This document shows, piece after piece, positions 1,872-56,794 of a stretch of 64,000 bases of DNA (its first letter is position 1; each line of letters begins with the position of its first letter). The notes under the pieces are model-generated. The model searched no databases. It saw only the letters and a program-made list of their open reading frames with translations, and had not been told where the DNA came from. The DNA is from Artemia franciscana (taxonomy: Eukaryota; Arthropoda; Branchiopoda; Anostraca; Artemiidae): NCBI RefSeq assembly GCF_032884065.1, contig NC_088867.1, positions 51,023,317-51,087,316 of the forward strand. Direction: 5' to 3'. The position numbers were made by a program, and so were the translations under genes.

Positions 1872-2100
1872 TAAATAAAAAAACTAGTTTTTTTAACTGA
1901 AAGTAAGGAGTGACATTAAACTTAAAACGAACATAAATTGTTCCGTATATGAAAGGGGATATCCCTTCCTCAACACCTCGCTCTTCACGCTAAATGTTTT
2001 TTTTTTTTTTAAGTAGAGCTGTGAGAAATAGTTAAACTGTAGCGTAAAGAGCGAAGCATTGAGGAGGGGACAACCCCTTTCATAGATGGAATAAATTATA
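1872..2100. mobile_element. family A foldback module, isolated copy
   Basis: Starts with the motif AACTGAAAGTAAGGAG followed by a left arm, a T-rich loop and an inverted right arm containing 'gcgtaaagagcg'. The arms have diverged at several positions and the distal right arm is missing, so this is an old copy. The short open frame over it is not a gene. Confidence 0.7.
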
Positions 2101-3019
2101 TTTGGTTGTGTCAAATTTAAAAAAAGAGTAACATTTAAAACATATTTGGTTTTCAATAAAATGTGAATTATGTTCCGGTCGTTAGTAAGTACGGGGAGTG
2201 TCAGCCTACACAAAACCTATATGATTATCATATCGATCAATTTTTTTCTTATTTGGATGAAATCCTGGGGCTGCTCAAAAGCAAAGCTATTAAGGAAGAT
2301 TTAAACAGCTTTACCGTTCAAAATTGAAACATAGGAGCTTGACATTCGATTTGAAATGATCATCGAAATTTTTTTAACAGTTCCACTAATCTTAGGTTCT
2401 TAATGTTTATTTAATTCTAATCTGTATTTTATTGAATTGATTAATATAATTAACAAATAACAGTATAGTTTATTCACAAATAAAAAAATAAATAAAATTA
2501 ATGTTCAGTTCTATTATTAAACTAAATTTATCATTAAACTACTTAAGTTAAAGTTTAACTTTGTCTTATAATTCTACTTAAATAACAAAGGCTCATTTAG
2601 GTGCTTTTGCTTTCCACAACAATTCGATTTATAAAGCTACTGTCTTCATTGATAGGTTTGATTTTTATAATAAGAAAGAGTCTGTGAAACCCTCCCCATT
2701 ATTATACACTTAGTACAAATTTATTCCTTCACTGACCTACTCTCATTGGTAATTTGAAACCAGAAATGATTTTCTGAGACTTGAGGGCAGTCCTTCCCCT
2801 TGAGAAAAGATCCACCGACTTCTCCCTAATATTTGCAGTTTTGTACAACTATGCAAAACTTGATAACCATTAGTATTACGGTACAAATGATCTATAAGGA
2901 CTTCACATTTTTTTTTGTCGTTTATATATTCTACTTTATTCATGATATCGTCATGATAAGACGTCTTGCTTAATTGTGGTTAGGCTATTTTTGGACGATA
3001 TATTTGTTTCCCAAAAAAA

Positions 3020-7050: not shown

Positions 7051-7421
7051 TTCAGAATGATTTGGTGATTATTTAATTTTTTGAATATACCCCTCCCCCT
7101 CCTTAACAAGTACTTGTCTCCCATTAATGATTCTTGAGTTCGCGCCTTTTACCAAAAGCATATATATTATTCAGAATCAGAAAGTGGGGGAACAGACACC
7201 AGTCAACCACTCTAAAATTTTCCGCCTCACCTCGATTTTGAAATACACCTTTAAGTTTTTTTTATTAAAATAAATTGCAACTCCCTTGATTTCCAAAAGC
7301 ACTTTTTTTTCTATCTTAATAACAAAACTGTTAGCTTATCCTTGTCTTCCTCTCCATTTTCGTAAATTGTTGCCCCTCTTATTAAATTTTCTTTTTTTTA
7401 AACTAAAATTTGTTAAATTTA

Positions 7422-8052
7422 ATGAACAAGCTTTTCAAACAAGATTAAGCAGCAACGTTAAAACATAAGACGGGTAGAAAATATTCCGTATATTAAGGGG
7501 GAACCCCCTTAACTTTAAAGTAAAAAGCCAGGTATTGAGGAGGGGGTGACCCCTTCATATACGGAATAACGTCTGTTTTGAGTTTTAATGTTGCTCCTTA
7601 CATCCAGTTGAAAAAATTGTTTTTCTTTTATCTAATTTCTAATCGTTTTTCAAATAATGTCAGTAAATCTGACTCACCATGCATAAAATACTCCCTCCCC
7701 CACTGGGAATATCTCCCTTCCTACGGGAATCATACCCGTGGAAACCAACCCCAAGCACAAAATACCACCACAAAAAATGAAATATGCTGAATCTGACGGT
7801 GTGATTTTCATCCAGATTCTTTGATTTTTTATGGGGGGGTTCCTCCTTTTCGGGGAATCAGTTAAATTTTCTCTGGCTCGTAGCCTTTTATGGTTAACAC
7901 TAAGCTTAATGAATATTTTATATTTGGAACGACCATTATAACCCAATTCTTTTGATATTTCTATTGATATCGAAGTTCCCTTTTTTAGAGTTTCGGTTAC
8001 TATTGCGCCTTGTTTCTCCTTACTTACAGTTCGTTACCACGAAGTGTTTGAT
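7422..8052 (+). mobile_element. family A element, internally deleted copy
   Basis: Contains a shortened foldback (7470-7612), the 3' half and the terminal hairpin 'cagttcgttaccacgaagtg' followed by TTTGAT. Most of the middle of the element is absent. It lies directly upstream of another copy in the same orientation. Confidence 0.7.
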
Positions 8053-8074
8053 TGTGACACAAAAATCCAAAACA

Positions 8075-9035
8075 TTGGCGTAAAAAGTGAGCAATGAGGA
8101 AGGGGTTGCCCCTTTCATGTATGGAGTGATCCCTGTTCGTTTTGTTTTTTAATGTTGCTTCTTACCTTCAGTAGAAAAAAGTCAATTTTTTAAATTTAAT
8201 TTCTGACCATTTTTAAATCAGACGAAAATATCACACCCGACCTTGTGTTAAATTTCTCATGAAAAGTTCTCCTGTAATTTTTTTCATCACAAGAAATTCT
8301 CCTAGTGGACCCCTCCCCCTCCCGCAGGAAATCCTTCTCCTTCCGCAAAAAGTTCCGTGTACTTTCCAATAACGTATACTATACGTAAACTAAGGGTAAG
8401 TTGCAGAACATACATTCCTTTTCCCAGGGGCTGTGGGGGTTTATGTCATCCCGAGAGGTAATTGGACCTTTCAACTCTGCTGAAATAGATGGCCACCTCA
8501 AAATTTTGGTCACTTGACTTTTTGAGAAAAAGATGGGCGGAAGGGGGTTAGCTGCTCTCCAATCTTTTCAGTCACTTAAAAATGTCACAAGGACTTCTGA
8601 TTTGTGGTCTGATGAGCCCTCTCCGATCGTCTAAGACCGTTGGTTCGATACAATAACCCCTAAAAAACAAAAAAAAAAACAACAAGCAATAAACATGCGT
8701 CCACGGTCGTTCTTCTGTAACAAATGCACAATTCCACAATTCAGTTGGTAAGAGCTTGAAATCTATATTTTTGGGTTTTGTGATATACTAAACCTGATGG
8801 CGTGTTCGTGTTGGTGGTGTTCCTCCCATCCCTTTCGAAAATCAGGCAAATTTTCTCAGACTATTAGCTTTTGATACATATCATCCAACTTAATGCATTC
8901 TATATGTTTGGAATTAGCATAAAATAATTTTTTTTCTGTGAAATAGGCATTATCAAAATTCCTTTTCTTAGATTTTCGGTTACTATTGGGCCGAGTCGCT
9001 TTTTACTTACAGTTCGTTACCACTAATTGAATGAT
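8075..9035 (+). mobile_element. family A element, 5'-truncated copy
   Basis: Begins inside the right arm of a foldback ('tgagcaatgaggaagggg') and runs through the G/C-tract block and poly-A spacer (8670) to a degenerate terminal hairpin at about 9010-9030. Head-to-tail with the preceding copy, about 22 bp apart. Confidence 0.7.
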
Positions 9036-11180: not shown

Positions 11181-11621
11181 ATATTTTTTTTAGATCCGCA
11201 CCTGTATTATCCCACCCTGAAATCTCAAAACTTCCAAAATTAATCATTTTGTTTAAGTTTTTACTGAGGACGCATCAATCATCTATATAATTCAATTCTC
11301 CTTAAGTTTAACGTTTCTATTCTAGTCTTTTTGGTGATAACCGATACAGGCCAAAGAGTAAAATGCATAACTATGTGACAACTTGTCGCTGAGTTGTAAA
11401 AGGCCTGATAATATTTTTTTGAATTTTAACTTATCTTATAATCTTTATTTTTAGGTATTGTGTCTATAATCATCTTTTCACGGAAGGGGTCTCAGAACTA
11501 TCTTTGAAGAAAAACCCTTGCTATTAGATTTTTATCAATATACTGAAGCTTTTCCTTGTGCATATATCCATATGGATAAATACTCCACGGTAGCTGCCAA
11601 TGCTTTCCCTAGTATGAAATT

Positions 11622-13375
11622 ACATAAAAAAAACTAGTTTTTTTAACTGAAAGTAGCCTAAGGAGCGACATTAAAACTTAAAACGAACAGAAATTACTCC
11701 GTATATGAAATGGGTTGTCCCCTCCGCAATCCCTCGCTCTTTATGCTAAAGCTTTTAATTGTTTTAAAAAGCATAATTGTGGCAAAGAGTCAAACTTTAG
11801 TGTAAAGAGCGAGGGATTGCGGAGGGGACGACCCATTTCATATACGGAGTAATTTCTGTTCGTTTTAAGTTTTAATGTCGCTCCTTACTTTCAGTTAAAA
11901 AAAAATAGTTTTTTTTATGTAATTTCTGATCGTTTTTGAATTAATGCATGTTTGATTTTGGCTCTCCACACATGAATTATTAAAATGAAATTTGCATATT
12001 AATTCCTTTTTTGGCTAAATGGCTTTCTCTTAGTTTTGATCAGACGATTTTGAGAAATAAGGGATGGGGAAGGAGGCCTAGTTGCCATGCAATTTTTTTC
12101 GATTACATAAAAAGGCAACTATAAATTTTTATTTTTAACGAATTTTTTTATTAGTAAAAAATATACGTAACTTAAGAATTAACTTACGTAACAAACTTTT
12201 ATATTCTTTAATTTTTATTATGTATATGAGGGGGTTTGTACCCTCGTTAATACCTCGTTCTTTACACTAAATCGTAAGTTTTGTCCCAATTCTTTAAGAA
12301 TGACCCCTGAATCAGAAAGGCCGTAGAATAAATAGTTGACATTACTAAAAATACTATAGCATACAGAGCGAGGTGTTTATCTCCTCCTAAATACCTCACT
12401 CTTTGTGCTAAAGTATTTTTAGAACCCCTCATATGCGTAATAATCTCTGTTCGTTTTAGGTTTCAATGCTACTGTTTACTTTCAATTGAAAAAACTTTCC
12501 ATATTTATTTTTTCATTGTTTTTTTTATAGTAATTTTAGAAAATTCTGCGCCCTTTTCATTGAATTTCTGTTCCTTCATGACATATTTCTCCAAGGAAAG
12601 ATCCTCCCACATAGCCCCCTCCTCTCAACCCCACCCCCAAAACCAAAAAAAAATCCCCTGAAAACGACTGTACACTTGCCAATAACCATTATTATATGTA
12701 AACACTGGTCGAAGTTTGTAACTTGCAGCCCCTCCCTCAGGGACTGTGGGGGAGTAAGTCATTCCCAAAGACATATTTATTATGGTTTTTGACTATGCGG
12801 AACAAAATGGCTATCTCAAAATTTTGATCTGTTGACTTTGGAGAAAAAATGAGCGTGGGAGGGGGCGTAGGTGCCCTCCAATTTTTTTGGTCACTTAAAA
12901 AGGGCACTAGAATTTTTCATTTCCGTTAGGATGAGCCCTCTTGCGACATTCTAGGACCACTTGGTCGATACGATGACCCCTGGGAAAAAAAACAAAAACA
13001 AACAAACAAATAAACACGCACCCGTGATTTGTCTTCTGGCAAAAAATACGAAATTCTACATTTTTGTAGATAGGAGCTTGAAAATTTAACTATAAGGTTC
13101 TCTGATACGCCAAATGCGATGGTGTGATTTTCGTTAAGATTCTGTGACTTTTAGGGGGTGTTTTCCCCTATTTTCTAAAATAAGGCAAATTTTTCCAGGC
13201 TCGTAACTTTTGATGACAAAGACTAAATTTGATGAAACTTATATATTTAAAATCAGCATAAAAATTTGATTCTTTTGATGTATATTTTAGCATCAAAATT
13301 CCGTTTTTTTAGAGTCTCGTTTACTATTGAGCCGGGTCGCTCCTTACTACAGTTCGTTACCGCGAACTGTTTGAT
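11622..13375 (+). mobile_element. family A element, full-length copy
   Basis: One of the most complete copies, about 1.75 kb. Order: T/A-rich start, AACTGAAAGTAGCC motif, foldback 1 (about 11650-11910) with nearly perfect arms, AT-rich spacer, foldback 2 (about 12220-12500), a block with C-rich tracts, an A-rich spacer near 12990, and the 3' end with hairpin 'cagttcgttaccgcgaactg' and TTTGAT. No open frame in it looks coding, so it is non-autonomous. Confidence 0.8.
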
Positions 13376-13538: not shown

Positions 13539-15241
13539 CGTTTATTACGGACAATGGTGACTTTTTGGTGACTGTGCATTACCTTGAACTATTTAATAGT
13601 AAAACTTATTTTTTCTTTTTACGAGCAAAGTTGGAAATATCTTCAATTCAACAAAATAGGGACGTGACTTAAAAGAAAAAGTAGAATTTTGTGCTGGGCT
13701 TTCCACTTTTAAAAATAGCGCGGAGCTGGTGAGATGTGGCACCTAGGGTGGAAGTGTGTCATTTGTGGCGTAACGTTTCTTACAGATAAAATGGTGTTAT
13801 TAGCCTAAATTTAAGTAACTAGTAACTGACGTACATGTGACACTGCCCTTAAATTTGTAACTATGAATAAAGGCATAAAGTCAAAATAAAAATCTTAGAA
13901 AATCTCAATTTTCAGGTATGAATAGACCTAAGATGGGATCCAGGAGGAAGAAAGAAAAAAAATAAAGAAAAAGGAAATAGGAAAGGAGAAAAAAGAAGAG
14001 ATAGAAGGAAAGAGAATTCATATAAATATGAGAAAACCTGCAACTTAAATCAGGTGATGCGGGTGATTTTACGCAATATAAAAAAAAAGGTAAAGGATGC
14101 GGCACTAGACCCTTAAGGTCAGAACCGGCAGTGCTGATCTCCGTCTCAAGGCCCTTACATATTATTTTTGGTACTCTAAATTAAGCTAACTATCTTGTGA
14201 AAAGGTTTAATAAGAATCATGTCCAACTAGCATAATAAAACTGATACTAGTCTTAGTTCATTATTTCCATAGTCAACAAAAGCCCTCACCTTTTTAGATA
14301 GTTTTTTTACCCAAATACAAATCCAATTGCAAAACATTCAGATTCAAAGTTCTAATTTATGCTAAAAGGCCTGTTAGACTTTTATCATGCATACTTGGAT
14401 TCTAAACCCGTGAAAATTTACGAGCGTACCTATTAGTCTAATAAATAAAAGACAAGCAGCGCAAGACCCCATTACAAAGACAGGTCCGTATTATCCTTAA
14501 CGCCAGCTCACAAACTCAAGTCCCATCGGCAGAACGTGGCCTATAATTTGCTGGCCATCGGCTGAAAGCAGCGGGGAACCTGCGATTTTTACCGCCGATT
14601 TGGTGAAGAATGCCACAGCATACAGGGGTATATTGATCACCCCCTATTACCATAGGTAAATGAGCTCAAAGTTTACTTTTCATAAGGGTCTATCTAACCC
14701 CTGCAATGGAAGGATCGGTAGTTCTTAAAGTGATACTATATGCCATTATATTGAATTTGGGATACAATGTTGAAGGTTTGCAATCAACTTTTAACGTTAT
14801 TTTAGCAAAACCATTTTAACGAATTCCTTTCAAGTTAAGGATAATTATAAATTGTTGAATTTAATTGTTATTATCCTTATGTATACGACAATTCATAAGC
14901 CTTCAGCTATAAGGCTAAAATTTTTAATAACTTAAATTTAAGAAAAAAAGTTTTGCTGATAAAAGTAAAGAGAGAAAATGAAACTTAAGCCAACGAAGAT
15001 TGTTTCATATTAAGTGGATTGTGACATTTTTCTACATTTTTAGAATTCTGAAAAATTAGCACTTTACTGAAAACACAAAACTGACGCAACAAAACAGAAA
15101 TAGGAACAGGTAATTCCTCAAGTCACCTGAAAAAAAAGATAAATGAATAACCAATAAAGCTCTCATTAGTCTTTTGCCGGTCATGAAAGCAATAACTATT
15201 ATGTAAGATTTTAACTCTCTAAAAAAATTTAAGATTGCTTA
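13539..15241. other. intergenic, no gene seen
   Basis: AT-rich. A purine-rich A/G strand at about 13940-14020 generates a spurious minus-strand open frame rich in F, L and S. A family E-arm-like piece is at about 14935-15100. Confidence 0.6.
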
Positions 15242-16330
15242 GTCAAAAAGTTCATGGTAGCCAACTATGAGTAACAAGTGATGTGGCTCAATAGTAACCA
15301 AAATTCTAAGAGCAAGAGTTAATAATAATAGATACATCAAAGGAATGGAATTTGGATACTTATTTAAGCTATATAAAATTCATCAAGTTTAATATTACCG
15401 ATCAAAAGTTACGAGCCTGAGAAAATTAGCCAAATTTTGAAAAAGAGGAGAAGCACCCCCAAAAAACCAAGAGATCTTAATGAAAATCACACAGCGTATC
15501 AGAGAACTCTATTGTAGAGATTTCAAGCTCTTTTACACAAAAATGTTTAATTTTGTAATTTTTTTTGTCAGAAGTAAAATCAAGGATGCTCGTTTATTCG
15601 TTTGTTTGTTTTTTCCTAGGGGCGATCGCGTCGAACTAGTTATCCTAGATGTATCGGGAGAGGGTTAATTTGATCAGAAATCGAAAGTTCTATTCTCCTT
15701 TTTAAGTGGCAAAAACATAGGAGGGCAGCATCCCTTTCTCCCTCAAAGCCGTACGGCCAAAATTTTGAGGTAGCCACTTGTTCTACATAGTCGTAAGATG
15801 TAATAACTATGTCTTCAAGTATGACTCGACATATAGTATTGGTTTATTGGGAAGCATGCAGATGTGGAGGGAGGTTGCTTGGAAGGATCTTTCCATTGAG
15901 GAATTTTTAATGCGGGAAGGGAACTTCCCATGGGGGGGGGGGGGGGAAGAACCATATTTTTTGGCGTTATTTAAAAAAGATCGGAAATGAAATTAAAAAA
16001 CAAGCTTTTTTACTGAAAGTAAGGAGCAACATTAAAACTTAAAATGAACAGACATTATTATGTATATGAGGGGATTGCCCCCTTCTCAATACTTCCTCTT
16101 TCTGCTAAAGTTTTTTTTAGAACTTTTAAAAAAGCTTATTATTCTAATCAAGCGGCTCTTGTGTTTCAGGAGCCATTCTTAAATAATTAGAACAAACAAT
16201 CAAGCTTTAGCGTAAAGAGCGAGGTATTGGGGAGTGAACAACTTCCTGATTTACGCAATAATTTCTTTTCGTTTTAAGTTTTAATGTTGCTCCTTACTTT
16301 CAGTTGAAAAAGCGTTGTATTTTTTAATTT
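15242..16330 (-). mobile_element. family A element, reversed partial copy
   Basis: Minus-strand copy. The degenerate 3' hairpin end is at 15245-15275 and the foldback with AACTGAAAGTAAGGAGCAAC-type ends is at about 16000-16315. A run of about 12 G occurs at 15935. Only one foldback module is present, so an internal part is deleted. Short plus-strand open frames in it are chance. Confidence 0.72.
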
Positions 16331-19300
16331 ACTTTTCAGTAAAGCGCTAGTTTTCGGTAAACCAGCGTAAAGTTTAGCCAAATTTTTATCAATAAACTGT
16401 TTATAATAATTTTTAAGTAAATATACTTCTTATAAAGGATACCTTTTAAGAAGTTTCATAGGTGTACACAATCATGTTTAGTAAATATTTTTTAACATGG
16501 GTCTAGAGTAAAATTTTCCACCATGGGGTTTCATGCTTGGGGGAATTGCACTGTGGCCTCAAATATCAGGTTCACTGTATGTTCTAGCTGAGAAAACAAA
16601 TAAGGTTAACGGGTAATTTAAAAGTGTTTATCTGCCCATTCTCTTTTAAAACATTTAAACTGAATACTTTAGTTTTTATAGCAAATGTGCGTTAATAAAC
16701 TCCTCTACATTCTGAAAAATATTTTTATCCCATTTCAATTCCTTTTGTGCTTGAGTAGTCAATCTTAAGGCAGTAGGGACTAAAAGCAAACCTTTAGCGT
16801 AAAGAGTGGGGAGGTGGGCATAAGAAGGAGACTAATTTACTTAAAATTTAAAAATTTACTCTAAAATACTCTTAAAATTTACTCTAAAATACAGAATGAG
16901 TTTTGTCAGTTTAAGGTCTGATATCGCTCTTTATTTTCATTTGAATATAATTTTTTTGTTTTACATTTAATTTCTATTCGTTTTCAGTGCCCTATCCAGG
17001 TTTACTCTAAATGTGAGGAGGGCTTCTGTTCCCTGATACCAGGCTCTTAAAATCAATAGCTTTTGCAGAATACAGCTGGAAGAAGAGCTGATTTAGTGTA
17101 TTTGCTGTTCAAAACAAAGTATTAAATAATCCAAAATTATTTATCGTCTCTGCAATAAGAGAATTTTTGAATTAGAGGTCTATCATTATTAGTGATGGTT
17201 CAATTTTTATGAATGCATTTATTTTCAGGAACAAATTACATTCTCATGTCAGTATGGTTTCCGATACTAGAAGGTAATACAAATTCCCTTTCAATAGTTC
17301 TAAGAATTTCCCCTAAATAACTTGTTGGTCCTGTCTAGGTCCTATTCCAGAGGGATGGGCAAACTATTCCAGATTTAAGGGCTGAAGTCTCCCAAATGAA
17401 ATCAAACTCTTACCAAAAATTCCTTTTCACGGTTTTTGACAATATCGTCGAAAAAAATTGCTACAGCTAATTAATGCGACATTTTATGTTTTCCCAAGAA
17501 GGGTCCAAGAAATAGCTCCACCTAATCTCCCAGATCCCCAAAGGGGTCTTATTTACAGCAATTAATATAATTAATTGTAGCTCGTGTTTGCAAATACTAA
17601 TGATACAACTTGAAATTATTCTGCAGACACGGTACCTCTCGCAGCTAATGGAACTCAAGGTGGAGCTAATCGAAGTCAATAAGCCCTTCATGTCTTTCTA
17701 ATTAACCATCCAGGTATCCAATATTTAGCTTTAACTGTTTTATGTCTTCGATAAATATTTCTTGCCTGCCCTGTTTCTAAAGATGGTTGCCCAGATTATC
17801 AGTCAACTGATGTACTTAGCCAAAACAATTCAAAAACTAGTTTCTGAGGCATGTGTTACTTAACTCCATGAAGATGAATAGTCAGGATGGCTGAAATTTC
17901 AGTACCTTAAACCATGCTGAAATAACTAGGGCGTGTCCAGGACATGTGTCCGGAATGGAAGTGGATTATTCTTTTCGGGGGAGGGTCACCAGAAAACTTT
18001 ATTAAATGCATCAAAATTTGTTTATATGCCTTTTTGTTACTTTTTTACGAGCCGAAAGAAACTTTAAGGGTGGTTCAAACCCAGTACCCCTCCCCTCCCG
18101 CTGCATACAGCCTTACAGATAGGTAGATTTTAAAATCATAAGCATAAGCCATTAAATCATAAGCCAGATTTAAACGGGTTGAGCAAAGTCAAGTTTGGGC
18201 TAATATTAGAATCAACGCTATTTTCTAGGCAAAAATTAATTACAGTATATGTATCAATTTTAAATGCTGATCAATAGTTCACATCATAGAAGTTTCATCA
18301 TTTGAACAACTTTATTAGATAGATCTCTGGTTTCTTGTTCAAATAGCTTCTTGTCAATTAACTTTGCGAAGCCTAGGATTGGCTGTCACATTTGTGCTGA
18401 TCCAAAACTTTAATAGTAATGAATTTTATGTATATATTTAAATCTATAAAAAGTAAGTTTTATTTAGTTAGAAAGTAAGTTAGAAAGCTCTTCTACGAAA
18501 TCTTGACTTCATATTTTCTGGAAGGTTGACAGCTTTCGCAAAATTTTTTCTTAAATGAAAAAAGGGACCTTAGAGCCTGACTGTCAATACAGCATTAGGC
18601 TTGCCCAAAAAAAGATTGTATATTTCCTCTTTTTTAGAACTGTTTTGCTATAAAAAAAATCTACACTTTCAATGATTACTAATGAAAATACTAACACGCT
18701 ATACACCTAGCTACCTCTCAGTTTGGCAGGTAGGAAGAAAGGGGGGATATAATAGGCTGCAATGTTAATCTTAAGAGTAAGAGCTGTAGCAAAAAGAAAA
18801 AAGCCTTTGCGCAAATCTTTCTTGAGCACCAGAGGAAAACCTTTTGCCCACTTCTTTCCAGCAAAAACTTTGAAATCTACTTGGAATTTAGTGTTTGGTC
18901 TTGTTTCCTGGAGTCCTGTTGTAAGTCAAATCCAAATAAACCAGATTTTCAACTACTATTTTTCTTTTGCCAGAGGAGGGTACGAGAGGAGATTCTCAAA
19001 TTATAAAACACCACACCATATTACCCAATCGATGCATCACGCCATCTTCGGATTTGATATGACGACAAAATCGAAAGAAAACCTTCTCCATACGTGAGCA
19101 ATAACAAACTGAAATGAGTAAATACTGATAGAGGTGCGTACCCTTCTAGTTTATGTTACACAAGATAATTAGCTCAATATTAATTGATTCATATAGTTTA
19201 GAGATTTGAGCTCTGGTAAAAGGGCAGCACATACCAGACACGTGCGCGGGATTTTTTTTTGAGGGGGGGGGGGCAATATTTAAAAACTATTTATATAATA

Positions 19301-21962: not shown

Positions 21963-22130
21963 TCAATGCTCGTCTTCAATATCAAGCTCTGCATCAGATT
22001 CATCAATTTCACTTTCTTCGCTTCTCACGTCATTTTGATCCTGTCTTCTGTCGGCCGTGGAGGTGTCCTCTGGACCGTCTTGGACAACCCTCTTGTGCTT
22101 GGTTCGCCTATTTTGGAACCATACTTTCAC
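21963..22130 (-). CDS. ems: ems/EMX exon 3: recognition helix and acidic C terminus
   Basis: Terminal coding exon, 55 codons plus a TGA at 21963-21965. It opens VKVWFQNRRTKHKR, homeodomain residues 45-58, including Q50 and the invariant W48, F49, N51 and R53. After the homeodomain a short tail of about 39 residues becomes strongly acidic (SEESEIDESDAELDIEDEH). EMX proteins also end in a short acidic stretch, so the tail probably corresponds to that, though residue identity is low. The acceptor TCTATTCCAG precedes it at 22131. The exon is only partly visible as an open frame on its own because it lacks a methionine; the assignment rests on the frame joining exon 2 exactly in the middle of the homeodomain. 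Confidence 0.95.
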   Translation of the reverse strand: MKVWFQNRRTKHKRVVQDGPEDTSTADRRQDQNDVRSEESEIDESDAELDIEDEH

Positions 22131-26607: not shown

Positions 26608-28332
26608 ATCAAACAGTTCGTGGTAACGAACTGTAGTAAGGAGCGACCCGGCTCAATAGTAACCAAAACTCTAAAAAATGGAATTTTGATACCAATACCT
26701 ACATCAAAAGAATCGCATTTTAATGCGATTTTGAATATATAAGTTTCATCAAGTTTAGTCTTACCCATCAAAAGTTACGAGCCTGAGAAAATTTGCGTTA
26801 TTTTAGAAAATAGGGGGAAACACCCCCTAGAAGTCATAGAATCTTGACGAAAATCACACCATCAGATTCAGCGTATCAGAGAATCCTACTGTAGAAGTTT
26901 CAAGCTCCTATCTACAAAAATGTGGAATTTTGTATTTTTTGCCAGAAGGCAGATCACGGATGCGTGTTTATTTGTTTTTTTGTTTTCTTGTTTTTTTTGT
27001 TGTTTTTTTCCCAGGGGTGATCGTATCGACCCAGTTGTCCTAGAATGTTGCAAGAGGGCTCATTCTAACGGAAATGAAAAGTTCTAGTGCCCTTTTTAAG
27101 TGACCAAAAAAATTGGAGGGCACCTAGGCCCCCTCCCACGCTAATTATTTTCCCAAAGTCAACGGATCAAAATTCTGAGATAGCCATTTTATTCAGCGTA
27201 GTCGAAGAACCTTATAACTATGTCTTTGGGGACGCCTTACTCCCCCACAGTCCCCGTGGGAGGGGCAACAAGTTACAAACTTTGACCAGTGCTTACATAT
27301 AGCAATGGTTATTGGGAAGTGTACAGGCGTTTTCAGGAGTATTTTTTGGTTGGGGGAGGGGTTGAGAAGAGGGGGATATGCTGGGGGAACTTTCCATCGA
27401 TAATTTGTCATGGGGGAAGAAAATCTCCATGAAGGGAGCGCAGGATTTACTAGCATTATTTAAAAAAAAAAAAAACAATGAAAAAATAAATATGAAAAAG
27501 TTCTTTCAGCTGGAAGTAAGGAGCAGCATTAAAACTTAAAACGAACAGAAATTATTACCCATTTGAGGGGCTCACCTCCTCCTAATACCTCGCTCTTTAC
27601 GCTAAAGTATTTTTAGTAATTTCAACTATTTATTCTACGGCTTTTGTGATTCTGGGGTCATTCTTAATGAATTGGGACAAAATTTAAGCTTTAGTGTAAA
27701 GAGCGAGGATCTGACAAGGGGGCGAGCCCCCTCATATATGTAATAAAAATATGAGAATACAGAAGTTCTTTACGTAAGCTAATTTATAAGTTACGTAAAT
27801 CTTTTACTAATAAAAATATTCGTAAACAATTAAAAATTCTAGTTGCCTTTTTAATTAACCAAAAAGTCGGAGGGCAACTAGGCTTCCTCCCCCGCTCTTT
27901 GTTTCTCAATATCATTTGATCGAAATTATGAGAAAGCCATTTAGCCAAAAAAAAAATGCAAATTTTGTTTTAATTATTCCTCTGCGGAGAGCCAAAATCA
28001 AAACATGCATTGATTCAAAAACGTTCAGAAATTAAATAAAAAAAAAACAAGTTTTTTTAACTGAAAGTAAAGAGCGACATCAAAACTTAAAACGACCAGA
28101 AATTACTTCGTATATGAAAGAGGCTGCTTCCTCATCAACGCCCCGCTGTTTACGCTAAAGTTTTTTACTGTTTTAAAAAGAAGAATTGAGAGAAAGAGTC
28201 AAACTTTAGCGTAAAGAGCGGGACGTTGATGAGGAAGCAGCCTCTTTCATATACGAAGTAATTTCTGGTCGTTTTAAGTTTTAATGTCGCTCCTTACTTT
28301 CAGTTAAAAAAAACTTGTTTTTTTTATTTAAT
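26608..28332 (-). mobile_element. family A element, full-length, inside ems intron 1
   Basis: Reversed full copy, about 1.72 kb. The hairpin end (ATCAAACAGTTCGTGG...) is at 26608; foldback 2 is at about 27500-27760 and foldback 1 at about 28050-28320. Foldback 1 has almost perfect arms with variants not found in other copies. It sits in the intron in the same orientation as the gene. Confidence 0.82.
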
Positions 28333-29830: not shown

Positions 29831-29964
29831 CTGACCAATCACAAATAACTCCCCTGTCTGTAAGACGAATTCTTACGGAGAGTGTTATGCACAGCTTGAA
29901 CTAGTACGATAATGGAATCGAATTAACTAAATTAAAGCAACAATAAAATTAAGCAGTATGTTAC

Positions 29965-30565
29965 CTGGAGGGAATCGGTGTCCAAAAAAGCGGTTTTGTC
30001 GAGCCATTAGCCAAGGGTAAAGAGGATTCGATGTTTGCATCATTGGTGAAACCCCAGGAAGACTCTGAAAATTAGGTATATGAGCTAGCCCAACAGAAGC
30101 ATGATTCATAGGCTGTTGTAGACCAACTGCTGCTGCCAAGTGATGAGGCAGTTGTGCTTCGCCACTGTAAAGTGCCCTTAACTGTGTTAAAGCTTCAAGA
30201 ACTTGTGGTTGACCCTGGTGAAGTGGTGGCCACTGAAAATGTTGCTGAGGTACTTGTTGAGGTAGGACAATGGGGGATACAGGAGTTTCTGGGGTAGGGG
30301 CTGAAGAGGAGACTGGTGATGGTGTTCTTTGAGGGGTTGTAGAAGATCTTGGAGTCAACTGATCTTCACAGATTTCCTCATTTCCAACGATAGATTCAAT
30401 TGAAAAGCCTATTTTTGGCTTTTTATCACATCCTTGATCCAAGCTCTTATACTGAGAATAGTCTTTTGGCTCTGAATTAACATGTAACTGGAAAAACCGA
30501 TTACTTTGCCATGGATTGCTGGTTAAAAAATCACGTCTCATGTCTATCGGCGGGTTCACAGTCAT
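29965..30565 (-). CDS. ems: ems/EMX exon 1: eh1-like and YPWL motifs
   Basis: First coding exon, 200 codons plus one base (phase 1). The ATG at 30565 is preceded in frame by a TGA at 30578-30580, so translation starts here or at the second ATG, codon 9; both have G at -3. Residues 54-60 (FSIESIV) correspond to the EMX N-terminal eh1-like motif, which in homeobox proteins recruits the Groucho co-repressor. Residues 71-123 are rich in Ser, Thr, Pro and Gln, a typical low-complexity linker. Residues 183-186 are YPWL, followed by MARQNRFFGHRFPPG, aligning with the conserved block that ends the EMX first exon. The exon ends CCAG and is followed by the donor GTAACA at 29964. The roughly 50 residues before the eh1 motif are longer than the very short vertebrate EMX N terminus. 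Confidence 0.92.
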
Positions 30566-30760
30566 TACAGAATAAATTCACTGTTAAGCTACACCCTTTC
30601 TTCTTTGAACTAAATCAGACCCAAAAATATCTCCTTCAAGCATCAAGAAGTACGCCGTCTGAATTTTTACTCCTTCTGTTCTAATAGCCAATCAGAAGCA
30701 AGTACTTAGCTGATTTGCAAAGGGATTGGTCAGATGAAGTAAACATGGGAGGAAAGATCG
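30566..30760 (-). promoter_or_regulatory. candidate ems 5' UTR and proximal promoter
   Basis: The region directly upstream of the ems start codon contains two CCAAT boxes: one on the plus strand at 30688-30692 in the context GCCAATCAG, and one on the minus strand at 30725-30729. They lie about 120-165 bp before the ATG. I see no convincing TATA box. The transcription start is unknown, and a non-coding first exon further upstream is possible. Confidence 0.25.
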
Positions 30761-31689: not shown

Positions 31690-31930
31690 TAGAAAGGGAG
31701 TTTTCAATCATCAGGCGTCGGGGGCTGTTCCCCCCTCAACGCCCAGCTCTTTACGCTAAAGTTTTTATTGTTTTAAAAAGTAGAGTTGAGAGAAAGAGTC
31801 AAACTTTAGCGTAAAGAGCGGGGCGTTGAGGGGGGAACAGCCCCTTTCATATACCAAATAATTTCTGTTCATTTTAAGTTTTAATATCACTCCTTACTTT
31901 CAGTTAAAAAAACTTGTTTTATGTAATAAT
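31690..31930. mobile_element. family A foldback module, solo copy
   Basis: Foldback with arms around 'ggggctgttcccccctcaacgcc' and its inverted partner, a central 'ctttacgctaaag' / 'ctttagcgtaaag' pair, and the right end 'ccttactttcagttaaaaaaac'. The outer left arm is missing. Confidence 0.7.
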
Positions 31931-33399: not shown

Positions 33400-34992
33400 A
33401 ATAAAATTAAGTTTTTTTAACTGAAAGTAAGGAGTGACATTAAAACTTAAAACGAACAGAAATTGCACTGTATATAACAGGGGCTGTTCCCTCCTAAACG
33501 CCCCACACTTTACGCTAAAGTTTGACTCCTTCTCTCAGCCCTACCTTTTAAAACAGTAAAAAACTTTAGCGTAAAGAGCGGGGCGTTGAGGAGGAAAAGC
33601 CCCTTTCATATACGAAGTAATTTCTGTTCGTTTTAAGTTTTAATGTCGCTTCTTACTTTCATTTTTAAAAAAAACTTGTTTTTTTATATTTAATTTCTGA
33701 AAGTTTTTGAACTAATGCATATTTTGATTTTGGCTCTCTGCACATGAATAGTTAAAACCAAATTTGCATATACATTTTTTTGTGGCTAAATGGCTTTCTC
33801 ATAGTTTTGATCGGACGATTTTGAGAAAAAGGAACGGGGGAGGAGGCCTAGTTTCCCTCTGATTTTTTGGTTACTTAAAAAGGCAACTAGAACTTTTAAT
33901 TTTTTACGAACGTTTTTATTGGTAAAAAACATACACATTTTACGAATTAACTTATGTAACGAACTTTTATATTCCGTATGTTTTTATTACGTACAAGTGT
34001 CCCCCTCGTCAACACCTCACTCTTTAGACTAAAGCTTGAATTTTATCCCAATTCCTTAAGAAGGACCCCTGAATCACAAAGGCCGTAGAATAAATAGTTG
34101 AAATTACTTAAAATGCTTTATTGTAAAGACAGAGGTATTAGGAGGAGGTGAACCCTATATGCATAATAATTTATGTTTGTTTTGAGTTGTAATGCTGCCC
34201 CTTACTTTCAGTTGAAAAAAATTTCATATTTATTTTTTCATTATTTTTTAAATAATGATAGAAAATCCTGCACCCCTCCCCTTCATGGAAATTCTCTTCC
34301 CCTTTGAGAGATTCCTTCATTTAAAGATCCCCCTACGTAACCCCTCCTTTCAGCCCTTCCTCTCACCAGCCAAAAAATTCCCCCTGAAAACGTCAGTACA
34401 CTTCCCAATAACCATTACTATATGTAAATACTGGTCAAAGTTTGTAGCTTGCAGCCCCTCCCACGGGGACTGTGGGAGGATGCCCTACATGCCCTCCAAT
34501 TTTTTTCGGTCACTTAAAAAGGTCACTAGAGTTTTTAATTTCCGTTAGAATGATACCTCTTGCGACATTCTAGGATCACCGGGTCGATACAATCACCCCT
34601 GGGAAAAAGAAAAAAAAAATACAAACAAATAAATACGCATCCGTGATCTGTCTTCAGGCAAAAAAATACAAAACTCCCCATTTTTGTGGATAGGAGCTTG
34701 AAGCTTCTACAGTAGGGTTCTCTGATTCGCTGAAGCTGATGGTGTGATTATTTTTAAGATTTTATGACTTTTAGGGGGTGTTTCTCCCTATTTTCTAAAG
34801 TAAGGCAAATTTTCTCAGGCTTCTAACTTTTAATAGGCAAGATTAACTTGATGAAACTTATATATTTAAAATCAGCATTAAATTGCAATTCTTTTGATGT
34901 AACTATAGGTAACAAAATTCCGTTTTTTAGATTTTGGTTATTTATGAACCGGGTCGCTCCTTACTACAGTTCTTTACCACGAACTATTTGAT
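33400..34992 (+). mobile_element. family A element, near full-length copy
   Basis: About 1.6 kb with foldback 1 (33420-33670), foldback 2 (about 33980-34215), the C-tract block, the A-rich spacer near 34610 and the hairpin end 'cagttctttaccacgaact' with ATTTGAT. Open frames inside it are not genes. Confidence 0.8.
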
Positions 34993-35850: not shown

Positions 35851-37078
35851 CATGGAGTTCCTTACCTTAGACCTTAGATCTTCTTGGCCTCCAGAGGCAC
35901 CCAAGCCGTCTAAGAAGAGCCTCCAATCATCTCTGTAACTGCTGACCGCAATAATATCTTCCCACTCAGGTTGTAGGGAGGCATGAAATTGACGAAGGTC
36001 ACTGTTGAAGGTACGATGGAGTGTGTTTTTGGGTCGTCTTCTACAGTAGGTATCTTCGGGTAACCAAAAGAATGCTTTCTTGGGGATTCTGGTGTCGTCC
36101 ATACGCACTACGTGGCCTTGGTAGCTCTATCTGCGTCTTCGTATGGTTTCAATGAGGGTTGGCTGACCTCTGATCTTCCTTATATGTGCATTTGTGACTT
36201 TTTGAGTCCAGTGAGTACCGAGCAGCCTCCGGAGACAAGCATTCTCAAAGAACTGGATTCTCCTCTCTTGGACTTGGTTGAGATGTCAAGTTTCCGATGC
36301 GTAGAGGAGGACAGGCAGGCCATTGGTGTTGAACAGGCGGAGTTTGAGCCGGAGAGAGAAAGTACTCGATCTCCATACTTTATTGAGCCTTTTGAAGGTG
36401 CTGTTAGCCTGACCAATTCGGACAATGACTTCTTTGGCTGTGGATCCTGGTGTTTTCGATGATACTACCAAGATATTTGAAGTTGACTACCTGGTGTACA
36501 TCGTCGTCACCGCATTTGATTTTCGTAGGTGAGTCGCTTGTCACCATTCCTTTGGTTTTACTGACACTGAAATTAATCCCGAATTCACCTGCTTTTTGCT
36601 GGATATTTGAGAGAAATTCCTGAAGTCGTGCTTCGGCGGTTTCAAGTGTTGCAATGTCATCAACAAAATCTAGATTGCTGAGCGGGCGATCATTTAGGCG
36701 TAATCCAGTTGACTCGAGGCTTCTCAATATATAGTCCATGACCAATGCAAACAGTAGTGGTGATAAGACACAGCCTTGTTTCACCCCAGAGACGATTAAG
36801 AATTTACGTGATTTCCCCTCTGAAGTCCTCACACAGCTTGTTGTATCTTCATACATGGCCATAATTAGCTTAACTAAGATGTTAGGGATACCGTAATGGC
36901 GGAGAAGCTTCCAAAGTGACTGGCGGTCCAAAGAGTCGAAGGCTTTTTCAAAATCTATCAAGATCATACATAACTTGTTGTGCCATTCGCAGCTCTCCTC
37001 GGTGAGCATTCGCAAAGTGAAAATCAGGAGCGGTTTGGATCTATTCACTGTTTGTGGCACCATCATCAGCAATTGCAA
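35830..37078 (-). pseudogene. non-LTR retrotransposon reverse transcriptase, 5'-truncated and decayed
   Basis: Remnant of a LINE ORF2 copying element RNA at a nicked target. The first frame (37078-36404) has reverse-transcriptase motifs in order: DFEKAFD, GVKQGCVLSP, and the catalytic box as FVDD instead of the usual FADD. LINE homology seems to begin near 37030, so the endonuclease and N-terminal part are missing. Near 36460 the frame shifts; downstream the protein continues in one frame through YASET, an FENACLRR block and GHVVRMDDTRIPK to near 35840. That second frame is broken by TGA at 36286-36288 and TAG at 36127-36129, both where family members usually have Trp. The C-terminal block resembles the zinc-knuckle-free tail of RTE-like and related clades; clade assignment is tentative. 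The plus-strand open frames here are shadows. Confidence 0.88.
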
Positions 37079-37440
37079 AATGTCCAGAATTGAAATTTAT
37101 ACTTGACAGCAAATATTGAGAAAAACTTTAATTCTTTCAGAATTGTTAATTTATGTGTTATAGTTAGAACTGTCTTTAGTTAAATTTATCATTTATGGAA
37201 GTTGGCTAGCCAGTGATGACTGGAGGAAAATGGGCCAAATAAAAAGTAATTCCTATTGCAGTTCTGAACCAGGATAAGGTGAATTTCTTAAAGTTATAAA
37301 TCAATATAATTATGAATTATAACCGTGACACTAAATAGGAAAAAAAAAACAGTGCAGTCTGATTTACCTGTTTTACGAAAAGTTTCTCTTTATCGCTCGC
37401 TAAACAACAAATAGGATGGCTTCACACAGGGACATCAATT

Positions 37441-38094: not shown

Positions 38095-39065
38095 GTACAC
38101 ATTAATTAAAAAAACAAAGATTTTTCAAGGAAAGTAAAGAGTGGAGTTGAAACTTAAAACGAAAAAAAAATTATTACTTCCCAGCCTATCTAACATATAT
38201 CAATAAAACTAGTGCAAATAAATCAATCTGGTGATATTTCCCTATGTTTGTAGAATTACAAACAACTAGCGCTTTACTGAAAACACAAAAGCCAAGTATA
38301 AAAACCAAAAATATTGATTTATGACTTAAGAGTAAATACGTAGCCTCACAACAACATACTAATCTATAACGTGTTTCATAGCCTTACAGGAGCTGTGATA
38401 TCAGTAAATTTCAGTAAACAATTAAAATTATCTTAAAAACTAAGTTATGAAAATAATATTTTTAAATTCATTAAATAGCATACAAAATAATGGATTGATT
38501 TATCAGGTAGCATATTGGTTTCACCTAGCATTACTCGAAATGAAGAACAAATCAACCATAAGATGAACTCCGGAAATCCAATTATTTCTCTCTAAAAAAC
38601 GGAAAATTCCAAGTTGTAATACAAATGCTGAAGCGAGCCTGCAGTCATAATACTAACAAGATTCCTTTACTTCGAACTTTTCTACAAAAAAAAAAAAAAA
38701 AAAAAAAATCATGAAATGTCCTTTTCCGATCCAAAATGACAGACAATCATTGAACTGAGCTCATTTTGCATAAGTGATGCCATATTAAAGGAAAAAACAT
38801 AAAGCAACAATCTAAAAATGCTTTACTTTTAAACTGTTAAAAGTATCCTTAAATGATTTACATTTGCCGTACCAAAACTCCTATATTGTTTTGGGTTTTC
38901 AATAAAGCGCTAGTTTTCTGTAATCCCACCAACATACGGAAATATCACCACTTTCATTGACGTTCACAGGCTGGGAAGTAATAATTTTTGATCATTTTAA
39001 GTTTCAAATTTTCTCTTTACTTCCCTCAGAAAAGCTATGTTTTTTTTTAATTGATCTTTGCTCGT
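38095..39065. mobile_element. family E foldback element, about 970 bp
   Basis: Terminal inverted arms of about 180 bp: left 38095-38290 ('aaagtaaagagtggag', 'ttattacttcccagcct', 'ctagcgctttactgaaaac') and right 38885-39065, its reverse complement. The interior, including a poly-A run at 38685-38707, has no coding frame. Fragments resembling one arm occur at about 1540-1620, 9890-9950, 14935-15100, 16335-16370 and 44345-44450. Confidence 0.7.
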
Positions 39066-50479: not shown

Positions 50480-52475
50480 ACTTGTCCCCGTAAAAAGAAA
50501 CAAGAGCTAAGAGCTCATATGGCACTTGTGACGAGGTCGGAAGAGCCGAGAGCTCATATGGTACGAGGTCGGAAGAGCCAAGAGCTCATTTGGACGAGGT
50601 CGGAAGAGCCAAGAGCTCATTTGGCACTTGTGAGAAGGTCAGAACCTAAAGTTAAACTTTATAGCACAAGATCCTTCTAAATATCAAATTTCATTAAGAT
50701 CTGGTCACCCTTTCGTAAGTTACAAATACCTCAATTTTCAAAATTACCTCCCCCCTCCCAATTCCACCAAAGAGAGCAGATCCGGTCCAGTTATGTCAGT
50801 CACGTATCTTAGACAGGTTTCTATTCTTCCCATCCAGTTTCATCCTGATCTCACCGCTTTAAGTATTTTCTAAGATTTCCGGTCCCCCCAACTGTCCCCC
50901 CCCCAATTACGTTTGATCCGGTTGAGATTTAAAATAAGATATCAGAGTTACGAGGTCCTTCTAAATATGAAGTTTCATGAAGATCCGATCACTCCTTCGT
51001 AAGTTAAAAATACGTTATTTTTCTTATTTTTCAGAATTACCCCCCCCCCCCCCGCAATTGAGCGGATCCGTTCCAATTATGTAAATTACGTATGCAAGAC
51101 TTTTGCTTATTTTTCCAACCAAGTTTCATCCCAATCCTTCCAATCTAAGGGTTTCCCATCATTTTAGGTCTCCCCACCCCAAACTTCCCCCAATGTCACC
51201 AGATCCGGTCAGGATTTAAAATAAGAGCTTTGAGCCACGATATCCTTCTAAAAATCAAATTTCATGGAGATCCAATCACCCATTCGTAAGTTAAAAATAC
51301 CTCATTTTTTCTAATTTTTCAGAATTAACCCCCCCCCCCCCCAACTACCCAAAAGAGAGCGGATCCGTTCCGTTTATGTCAATCATCTATCTAGGACTTG
51401 TGTTTATTTTTCCCACCATGTTTCATCCCGATCCCTCCACTCTAAGTGTTTTCCAAGTTTTAGGTTTCCCCCTCCCAACTCCCCGCCCCCATCACCAGAT
51501 CCGGTCGGGATTTAAAATAAGAGCTCTAAGACACGATATCCTTCTAAACATCAAATTTCATTGAGATCCGATCACCCGTTCGTAAGTTGAAAATACCTCA
51601 TTTTTCTAATTTTTAAGACTTACTCCCCCCCTCCCAACTACCCCAAAGAGAGCAAATAAGTTCCGATTATGTCAATCATGTATCTGGGACTTGCGCTTAT
51701 TTTTCCCATCAAGTTTCATCCCGATCCCTCTACTCTAAGTGTTTTCCAAGATTTTAGGTTTCCCCCCTCCAACTCCCCCCAATGTCATCAGACCCAGTCG
51801 GGATTTAAAATAAGAGCTCTGAGACACAATATCATTCCAAACATCAAATTTCATTAAGATCCAATCACCCGCTCATAAGTTAAAAATACTTCATTTTTTC
51901 TATTTTTCCGAATTAACCGGCCCCTTCTCCCCCCCCCAGATGGTCAAATCGGGAAAACGACTATTTCTAATTTAATCTGGTCCGGTCCCTGATACGCTTG
52001 CCAAATTTCATCGTCCTAGCTTACCTGGAAGTGCCTAAAGTAGCAAAACCGGGACTTTAGGTTTTCCCCCTCCAACTCCCCCCAATGTCATCAGATCCGG
52101 TCGGGATTAAAAATAAGAGCTCTAAGACACAATATCATTCCAAACATCAAATTTCATTAAGATCCAAATACCCGCTGATAAGTTAAAAATACTTCATTTT
52201 TTCTATTTTTTGCGAATTAACCGGGCCCCCACTCCCCCCCAGATGGTCAAATCGGGAAAACGACTATTTCTAATTTAATCTGGTCCGGTCCCTGATACGC
52301 TTGCCAAATTTCATCGTCCTAGCTTACCTGGAAGTGCCTAAAGTAGCAAAACCGGGACCGACAGACAGACCGACAGACAGACCGACAGACAGACCGACAG
52401 ACAGACCGACAGACCGACAGAATTGGCGACTGCTATATGTCACTTGGTTAATACCAAGTGCCATAAAAACAGGAA
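50480..52475 (-). mobile_element. family B element, copy 2
   Basis: Same structure as the copy at 5-7 kb but reversed. The tail has three 'aagagctcatatggcacttg'-type repeats at about 50500-50640, followed by about six tandem units of 284-303 bp, the head block, a (ACMG)n microsatellite of about 60 bp at 52358-52420, and the hairpin end 'acttggttaataccaagt' near 52441-52459. C-runs of up to about 15 bases mark each unit. The open frames crossing the units are repeat translations, not genes. Confidence 0.78.
52358..52421 (+). repeat. (ACMG)n microsatellite in family B
   Basis: Alternating GACC and GACA tetranucleotides, mostly as a 12-base GACC-GACA-GACA pattern, next to the head hairpin of family B copy 2. 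In the 5.1-kb copy the corresponding array is shorter and degenerate. Confidence 0.85.
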
Positions 52476-52719: not shown

Positions 52720-53830
52720 ATCAAATAGTTCGTGGCGACGAACTCTAAGTAAAGAGTGACTCGGACCACTAGAAATCAAAACTCTAAAGAAAGTAATTTT
52801 GATAACAATGAACATATCAGGAGAACTGGATTTATACACTGATTCAAAATATATAAAATTCGTTAATTTTAATGTTACCAATCATATGTTACGAGCCTCA
52901 GAAAACCCAACCGATTTGTAAAAAAGGAGATCAAATCCCCCAAAAATTAAGCGATTTTAATGAAAATCAAACCATCAGATTCAGCATAACAGAGAACCTG
53001 ACTATGTGAGTTCTAAGCTCGTATCTACGCAACTGAGGAATTTTTTATTTATTTTTATTTTTGCCAGTAAAAAGTATAACGGATGGGTGTTTTTTCTCAA
53101 GGGTTTTCTTATCAAACCAGTGGTCCTGAATGATAAGGAGAGGGCTCATTCAAACATATATTATAAGTTCTAGTCTCTATTTTAAGTGAAATAACTATTG
53201 GAGGGCATCTAGCACCCCTCCCAGGTCCTTTTCCCCCCTCAAAGATATCCAACCCAAATTTAATGATAGTCACTTGTTCTACATAGTTACAATATCCAAT
53301 AAGTACGTTCACCACAACCCCTGAGGAAAGGGCTGTAAGTTATGAAACTTACCAACTGTTTACATGTAGTATTTGTTATTGAGAAATATACGGAAGCTTT
53401 TGAGGGGAATTTTCTTTGGTGGGGGGATTTTCTGGGGGTAAGTTTCAACAGAGGGGGAAGAGGATCCTCCGACCTGATTTGAAAAACGATCGGAAATTAA
53501 ATTTAAAAAAAAAGCTTTTTCAACAGTATGTAGTAACATTAAAACTTAAAACAAGCAGGAGTTTTTCCGAATATGAGAGGGGCTGCCTCATCAATCCCTC
53601 GCTCTTTACGCTAAAGTTTGACTTTTTTGTCTTAGTTCCTGAAGAAAGATTGTTGAAACACGAGGGCAGTTGGTCTGGAAGAAGAAGCTTTTTTAAAGCA
53701 CTAAATAACTTTAACGTGATGATCGGGATATTGGTAAGAGGGTAACCCCCCTCACATAAAGAATAATTTCTGTTAGTTTACGCTTTAATGGTGCTCCTTG
53801 ATTCCAGTTGATTTTTTTTTAATTTAATTT
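52720..53830 (-). mobile_element. family A element, reversed copy with one foldback
   Basis: Hairpin end at 52720 ('agttcgtggcgacgaact'), internal block and one foldback at about 53520-53815. Shorter than a full copy because one foldback and its spacer are absent. It begins about 245 bp past the end of family B copy 2. Confidence 0.72.
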
Positions 53831-56482: not shown

Positions 56483-56794
56483 TACGCATGCTGTGATCTT
56501 CTATTTTAAAATAACAATATAAATAAAACAAAATAAAAAATTAGCCTACTTATGCAAAAAAGGCACAGGTAACCACTTGTTACAGAATAACTTACACCAT
56601 TCCAAAAGTAAAAGGAGTAGATAAAGAGAAAACTTAAAAAGGGAGAATTCTAATAAGAAAAAAAATTGTCAAGCACTGACCTAGTACAACAACAGACAAT
56701 CCTCGCCCCCACCCCCATCCCCCAGTGCAACGTCTAAAATTTGCCCCCTTACATATGCACTGATGTGTGGAACGTAGTCTTTTAGTCGTAATTA

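Follow-up and report, generated by a model that had tools for sequence, protein, structure and literature searches.

The two arms of a long terminal foldback in an abundant Helitron-like element of Artemia franciscana have probably been kept alike by recurrent copying of short tracts from one arm to the other, with occasional inversion of the loop, in the lineage of the element that multiplies, and polymerase template switching is the most likely route. Under this reading, stretches of one arm of the foldback, termed FB1, would be copied repeatedly onto the other in short tracts when a polymerase changes template at the hairpin. Mutations would in this way come to stand in both arms and be inherited as subfamily markers, while the same process would now and then invert the loop together with adjoining arm and would rarely run on into the body of the element to leave a long palindrome. 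As to timing, we infer that these events would fall before or around the copying of the element, neither detectably after insertion nor at every copying.

The window, the whole stretch of 64,000 nucleotides that was analysed, contains ten places with a shared start point, each a variant of (A)TCAAACAGTTCG. Four of these starts belong to full copies of 1.6-1.8 kb in which a 5' end, body1, FB2, body2 and FB1 follow one another and the outer arm of FB1 forms the end (Table 1). The foldback arms of the copy at 28.0 kb (28039-28163 and 28201-28325) are 125 nt each, 94% complementary and separated by 37 nt, and the whole FB1 folds as a single hairpin at -133 kcal/mol under DNA parameters. A stretch of body1 (27073-27189) recurs at 78% identity in body2 (27828-27942). 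Judged from its sequence, the element looks like two tandem body-plus-foldback modules, as would be expected from read-through past an old terminator.

Table 1. Coordinates of the element, its parts and its relatives within the window.
Feature	Position	Strand	Basis or remark
Whole element (intron copy)	26609-28331	+	Non-autonomous, Helitron-like; common 5' start in 10 window copies
Element termini	TCAAAC start after A 26608; ATTTAA end before T 28332	+	35 scored genomic copies
5' subterminal short hairpin, CAGTTCG..CGAACTG	26614-26633	+	Sequence
Subterminal inverted repeat AACTGTAGTAAGGAGCGAC	26629-26647	+	Sequence; counterpart AACTGAAAGTAAGGAGCGAC inside the FB1 arms
FB2, internal foldback	27492-27745	+	Arms 27492-27607 and 27689-27745, loop 27608-27688; control without matched changes
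body2	27746-28027	+	Loop-independent probe for genomic copies
FB1 inner arm	28028-28160	+	
FB1 loop	28161-28203	+	43 nt, forward orientation
FB1 outer arm	28204-28331	+	Element 3' end; short A/T-run palindrome (AAAAAAACTTGTTTTTTT type) near the terminus
Subfamily B copy	11616-13375	-	FB1 11616-11926; loop inverted relative to the element
Subfamily D copy	33400-34992	-	FB1 33400-33696; loop forward; arms drifted
Subfamily C copy	56790-58499	-	FB1 56790-57090; loop forward; arms drifted
Foldback of a related element (start 52720)	53493-53829	+	93-nt loop inverted relative to the 16.0-kb and 63.0-kb loops
Solo FB1-type foldback	1872-2107	+	Drifted; no adjoining body
Solo FB1-type foldback	31707-31930	+	Left arm cut short

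Several other features lie in the window. At 7414-9035, the element starting at 8052 (-) sits inside the foldback loop of the element at 9035 (-), and the apex of its own hairpin is deleted, leaving a loop of 3 nt. A further family with larger inverted ends, arm motifs in common and an inner ACTAGCGCTTTACTGAAAACAC-type repeat is found at 38104-39047 and about 14930-16990; one of its members apparently encloses the element at 15243. There are also tandem arrays with units of about 293 and 303 bp (50671-52358), an open frame with a reverse transcriptase domain (36404-37096 (-); RVT_1, E 5.5e-24), a homeodomain-like stretch KVWFQNRRTKHKR at 22121 (-), and an open frame at 29927-30577 (-) that carries an FSIESIVG motif and has no Pfam match. 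The last two may be exons of a single homeobox gene.

Within the genome assembly (1.27 Gb, 6,468 contigs), 29,065 places lie within 3 mismatches of the first 64 bases of the element, against 0 for a reversed control, and a published Artemia franciscana assembly puts Helitrons at 8.81% (PMC11492255). Element ends were scored in 35 subfamily A copies, the remainder of 47 rows after removal of 5 duplicates, 4 rows without a fitting 3' end and 3 without a fitting start. The base preceding the initial TC is A in 28 copies, T in 4 and G in 3, and a T directly follows TTAR in 34 of the 35. The 3' terminus reads TTAA in 32 and TTAG in 3 and CTRR is absent, this absence being the only informative part because the search pattern required TTAR. 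Among the joins listed, flanks match related unoccupied repeats with no target duplication, as at L058 and, by eye, at L045; at L021 and L022 the joined flanks depart from the repeat by one or two bases close to the joint. Insertion is thus between A and T without duplication, which is Helitron-type, with a 3' end other than CTRR.

FB1 forms the hairpin at the 3' terminus of this element, which is Helitron-like and non-autonomous. As in Helitrons such as Helraiser (PMC4778049), the element starts with TC (TCAAAC) after a host A, is followed by a host T, lacks a target-site duplication and has a palindrome shortly upstream of its 3' end, here both the A/T-run palindrome and the FB1 hairpin. With Helentron/HINE elements (PMC4067079) it shares subterminal inverted repeats, a AACTGNAGTAAGGAGCGAC-type repeat lying near both ends, together with the 3' palindrome; the T-rich site with T on both sides that marks this group was not seen, mostly A standing before and T after. 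Relative to both groups as described in these two sources, the present family differs in ending with TTAR rather than CTRR, in bearing a foldback of 250-300 nt instead of a short hairpin, and in that no autonomous partner was found. The search for a RepHel partner with the same ends, in which 150 Helitron_like_N matches were scored among 7,435 candidates and one autonomous family was examined, found none. That family consists of young autonomous Helitrons (L157-L160, the flanks of two copies), whose 5' flank parts are 99.9% and 3' parts 100% identical and which sit in TA microsatellites; common ends were rejected for them, since a 14-bp stem precedes a terminal CTAG there, with T as the next base. 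A foldback transposon or MITE was likewise rejected, the foldback being at the 3' end only and no target-site duplication being seen. Rfam at gathering thresholds gave 0 matches, as did exact pattern scans of viral contigs and genome contigs.

The initial annotation had pointed to variants shared by the two arms of single foldbacks, and these are present: gaccag, acttcg and ggctgcttcctcatcaacg in both arms at 28.0 kb, aaatggg and ccgcaatcc in both arms at 11.6 kb, and gttcccccctcaacgcc common to both arms at 31.7 kb, within the inner part of about 40 bases. The arms of older copies have drifted apart as described, with a likeness of 77% at 1.9 kb and 87% at 56.8 kb, and also of 84% at 33.4 kb. 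The paired arms of six window copies (12 arms) have 22 non-consensus variants in common, where re-pairing gives 6.9 on average and a count of 22 is reached by 5 of all 10,395 re-pairings; 8 of the shared variants occur in no other arm (13 arms used), where the average is 1.4 and 8 is reached by 35 of 10,395. Most of the signal comes from the foldbacks at 28.0 kb (7 shared, 4 unshared) and 11.6 kb (7 shared, 3 unshared); those at 33.4 and 56.8 kb have 1 shared and 13 unshared variants each and, taken together, do no better than under re-pairing. A matching produced by chance or by the alignment of six copies from one window could draw on this dependence on two copies, but the same result from 132 genomic copies in four subfamilies makes such an origin negligible. 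The matched variants are therefore real beyond chance, although the term copy-private does not hold for them: with all 29 window arms as reference only 2 shared variants stay private, and in the genome they are subfamily or clade markers found in both arms of many copies. The impression of privacy arose because one member per subfamily is visible in the window. The observation is real at the level of the subfamily, not of the copy.

The FB1 at 28.0 kb recurs, with an identity of 95-99%, in no fewer than 39 places elsewhere in the genome. Copies were oriented by the body adjoining FB1, and inner and outer arms were separated. Subfamily A (28.0 type) comprises 45 distinct copies, the window copy and 44 further ones from 20 of 39 plus 30 of 40 places, with L036 (no adjoining body) and L021b (another type) omitted. 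Five of the 45 (L020, L025, L039, L054 and L057) lack a 5' part of the body and keep the 3' end. Subfamily B (11.6 type) is represented by 37 of 40 places, 36 of them beyond the window copy, subfamily C (56.8 type) by 32 of 40, and subfamily D (33.4 type) by 19 of 21, 20 of 39 further places having been fetched; 3, 8 and 2 places, respectively, were dropped for want of a complete foldback, and the later removal of L121, a near-identical duplicate, left 31 in C. L097 and L127, which have body on both sides of FB1, were taken out of the flip counts and kept in the consensus, arm-tree and mismatch counts.

In each of the four sampled subfamilies, the consensus inner arm equals the consensus outer arm over a 103-base core, and the arms of young copies are about 97% alike. 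The columns that distinguish the subfamilies number 14; all are matched (14/14) and all fall within core 49-84, so that none of the 14 changes is in the outer 49 bases of the core, where the subterminal repeat is located. Clade markers within subfamily A include site 36 A>C, found in both arms of 8/8 A1 copies, and site 37 A>C, found in A2 in the inner arm of 16/16 and the outer arm of 14/16 copies. On a tree of 260 arms (4 of 264 were left out for gaps), the subfamily label changes 12 times against 137.6 when shuffled, and the inner/outer label 85 times against 86.8, and 110 of 300 shuffles give 85 changes or fewer. Clustering of left arms with left and right with right, the outcome named beforehand as contrary to matched arms, thus did not occur. 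The expected pairing of arms by copy is seen to the extent that the partner is among the nearest arms for 40/260 against 1.7% by chance. Arm identity was also expected to fall with age, and it does so between subfamilies (mismatch 2.5% in A, 3.6% in B, 8.0% in C and 13.3% in D) but not significantly within A, where arm mismatch and body singletons give a Spearman coefficient of 0.14 (p 0.39, 41 copies).

For matched variants private to one copy, the observed and expected numbers are 0 and 0.09 for A (45 copies), 2 and 0.11 for B (37 copies), 6 and 0.53 for C (31 copies), and 3 and 0.67 for D (19 copies). Those of C and D may be explicable by unsampled siblings, both subfamilies being sparsely sampled. 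Since such variants are near zero in A and B, conversion at each copying cannot be general.

The loop offers a second record. In the window, the 43-nt loop is forward at 28.0, 33.4 and 56.8 kb and inverted at 11.6 kb (reverse z 11.1, forward 1.7), and the 93-nt loop at 53.5 kb aligns with the 16.0-kb loop in reverse (z 13.4, forward 2.0). Among the sampled copies, orientation is forward in 42 and inverted in 3 for A, inverted in 34 and forward in 2 for B, and divided 27/3 in C and 18/1 in D, so that the minority orientation makes up 3/45, 2/36, 3/30 and 1/19 or, in total, 9/130 copies (L097, L127 and L121 excluded). One prevailing orientation per subfamily plus exceptions implies that orientation is inherited, with re-inversion, and subfamily B descends from a flipped source. 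Flips are as frequent in young as in old subfamilies (5/81 and 4/49, p 0.73), though arm mismatch climbs from 2.5% to 13.3%; within the limits of these small numbers, an age-flat frequency speaks against steady inversion after insertion.

Other variants are confined to one arm. In clade A3, 7/9 copies have C>G at core site 85 in the inner arm only, and C>T is restricted to the outer arm in 10 copies at site 82 and in 4 copies at site 84. These variants pass unmatched through many copies, which refutes matching at every copying event; of the three origins offered at the outset, descent from progenitors whose arms already matched accounts directly for what is seen in the window. Matched progenitors themselves still require arm-to-arm copying, the footprints of which are the 14/14 subfamily sites, the loop inversions and the scattered genotypes at sites 22 and 82. 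Read as inner/outer in the 45 A copies, site 22 is T/T in 35, C/T in 7, C/C in 3 and T/C in 0, and site 82 is C/C in 32, C/T in 10 and T/C in 2, with one gap. Ten forward copies carry the T of site 82 on the outer arm, and 2 flipped copies carry it on the inner one (Fisher p 0.015); the third flipped A copy, L056, has no site 82 variant, and the side switch thus rests on two copies. An arm-specific mutation hot spot at site 82 was rejected because the two flipped copies have T on the other arm.

The body tree of 41 A copies, with weak supports in places, separates these sites. Changes at site 22 (9 against 8.6 shuffled) and site 82 (11 against 11.0) are scattered over it, while sites 36 (2 against 8.5), 37 (4 against 14.5) and 85 (5 against 9.7) follow the clades and sites 75 (3 against 3.9) and 84 (4 against 5.9) are intermediate. 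Exchange of the whole FB1 as a block between clades was rejected as the source of this scatter, since sites 36 and 37, located between the two scattered sites, agree with the body clades. Recurrent mutation is disfavoured for sites 22 and 82 because it would be expected in both arms alike. The pattern fits a source that was unmatched at both sites, followed by short-patch conversion in its descendants. The window copy (L029) is matched at site 37 and unmatched on either side of it, at 22 and 82, which sets the patch at less than 60 nt.

Matched changes might instead reflect selection only, if well-paired hairpins move better and compensatory mutations accumulate without any copying between arms. 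The 3' hairpin of the Helitron Helraiser is a termination signal for transposition (PMC4778049), and the unchanged outer 49 core bases of FB1 agree with a constraint of this kind. Selection by itself, however, predicts neither loop inversion, nor the side switch at site 82, nor scattered genotypes, and unmatched sources do amplify, all of which leaves it very improbable as the whole explanation; selection for hairpin pairing could contribute to the matched changes.

FB2, the internal foldback, served as a control. Of the 45 A copies searched, 2 gave no FB2 loop and the other 43 all have it in forward orientation, and of 9 clade markers within its 57-bp paired region 0 are matched, even with offsets of up to 3 bases allowed; at one possible pair, 27581/27716, both arms changed in clade A1, to opposite bases. 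Compared like for like in A, 2/3 markers are matched in FB1 and 0/9 in FB2, a weak difference (p 0.045). Inclusion of the 14 subfamily sites gives 16/17 against 0/9 (p 3.2e-6), a comparison that mixes unequal levels, and the difference in flips, 3/45 against 0/43, is not significant (p 0.24). Since the arms of FB2 are only about 70% alike and one of them is short, its lack of matching may perhaps be due to low homology rather than position.

Turning to the copies with body on both sides of FB1, longer stretches were obtained around L097 (L161) and L127 (L162). At L161:1265-3632 and L162:809-3465, a full element is followed by an inverted, 5'-shortened copy of itself, the two having one FB1 in common. 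The body halves of L161 show 1 difference in 605 aligned positions (99.8% alike) and have in common 19 differences from the B copy of the window; those of L162 are 83.5% alike and represent an older case. L161 looks like a recent turn-back of the strand at the terminal hairpin with a run-on of about 600 bases. It could be an assembly artefact, which is less likely for the diverged L162. Two smaller structures were observed elsewhere. In the 11.6-kb element, at about 12330-12423, the inner part of the 5' FB2 arm has a small inverted duplicate within the same arm, which looks like a further snap-back event. At L019:2100-2420, a second loop and outer arm with the same variants as the first stand at the element end behind a T-rich junction; this structure would suggest, on sequence grounds, that the 3' end was directly re-copied.

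Ordinary arm-to-arm recombination would give the same two outcomes as template switching, gene conversion matching the arms and crossover inverting the loop, as in Y palindromes, with neither template switching nor transposition playing a role. FB1 arms of about 130 bp that are identical in consensus would suit it, and at the human palindrome P6 conversions (56) outnumber inversions (3) (PMC3723533). Set against this, the site 37 tract of less than 60 nt is short, flips do not rise with age, copy-private matching is missing from A though young arms are about 97% alike, and the run-on palindrome of L161 resembles a snap-back product. Recombination thus appears unlikely, if still a serious contender; template switching is favoured over its classical form, short of proof.

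A second possibility would make self-copying of the hairpin a regular step of each transposition, by snap-back or a rolling hairpin, with flip and flop forms as at parvovirus ends. A foldback at the 3' end, loops in both orientations, identical consensus arms, and the likeness of L161 and L162 to snap-back extensions are all consistent with it. A parvovirus-like flip/flop terminus has both orientations in about equal numbers. Here the minority orientation is limited to 9/130 copies and the ratio is far from 1:1 in each subfamily; moreover, unmatched arm variants traverse many copies and A has no copy-private matched variants. Self-copying as a step of every cycle is therefore largely refuted and improbable, and an optional version is retained.

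In such an optional version, put forward tentatively and with rather low confidence, the terminal hairpin may be handled as a single strand during rolling-circle copying, where it would fold, have one arm templated or repaired by the other in patches, sometimes have its loop rejoined in inverted form, and sometimes prime synthesis into the body as in L161. If so, transposition itself would renew the terminator hairpin on which the element depends.

When inverted repeats show matched arms or an inverted loop, the change is usually observed as a single event. In yeast genes (PMC8604942), template switching homogenises the arms of short inverted repeats and inverts their spacers, and the inversions are reversible. 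There the spacer inversions changed 2-5 bp and the arms exceeded 9 bp, whereas in the Artemia element the arms are about 130 bp, the loops 43 nt (93 nt in the related foldback), the location is the end of a mobile element and the changes are inherited by subfamilies. Hairpins of RNA genes (PMC8794818) are similar in that one template-switch event yields compensatory changes and fully inverted loops; they differ in that the inverted loops are mostly of four, some of seven to eight nt and that RNA structure is under selection, rather than a transposon DNA hairpin. P6 (PMC3723533) likewise combines arm matching, several arm-variant genotypes and rare inversions recognised from phase, but its conversion tracts are multi-kilobase and at one locus, in contrast to a tract of less than 60 nt and many dispersed copies here.

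The mechanism is accordingly already known. What seems new is the combination, in which such events keep matched the long hairpin at the end of a very abundant Helitron-like element and the changes are inherited subfamily-wide; no description of such arm behaviour in this family was found in the literature searched, a result that counts only weakly towards its being undescribed. The system does not look like a new kind of element; it has the appearance of a large-scale natural record of template switching. Together with body trees and the FB2 control, the element family records conversions, tract lengths, inversions and snap-back extensions, which makes it possible to measure how often and when template switching takes place in the genome of an animal. 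It also suggests how a long terminal hairpin stays perfect while its sequence changes.
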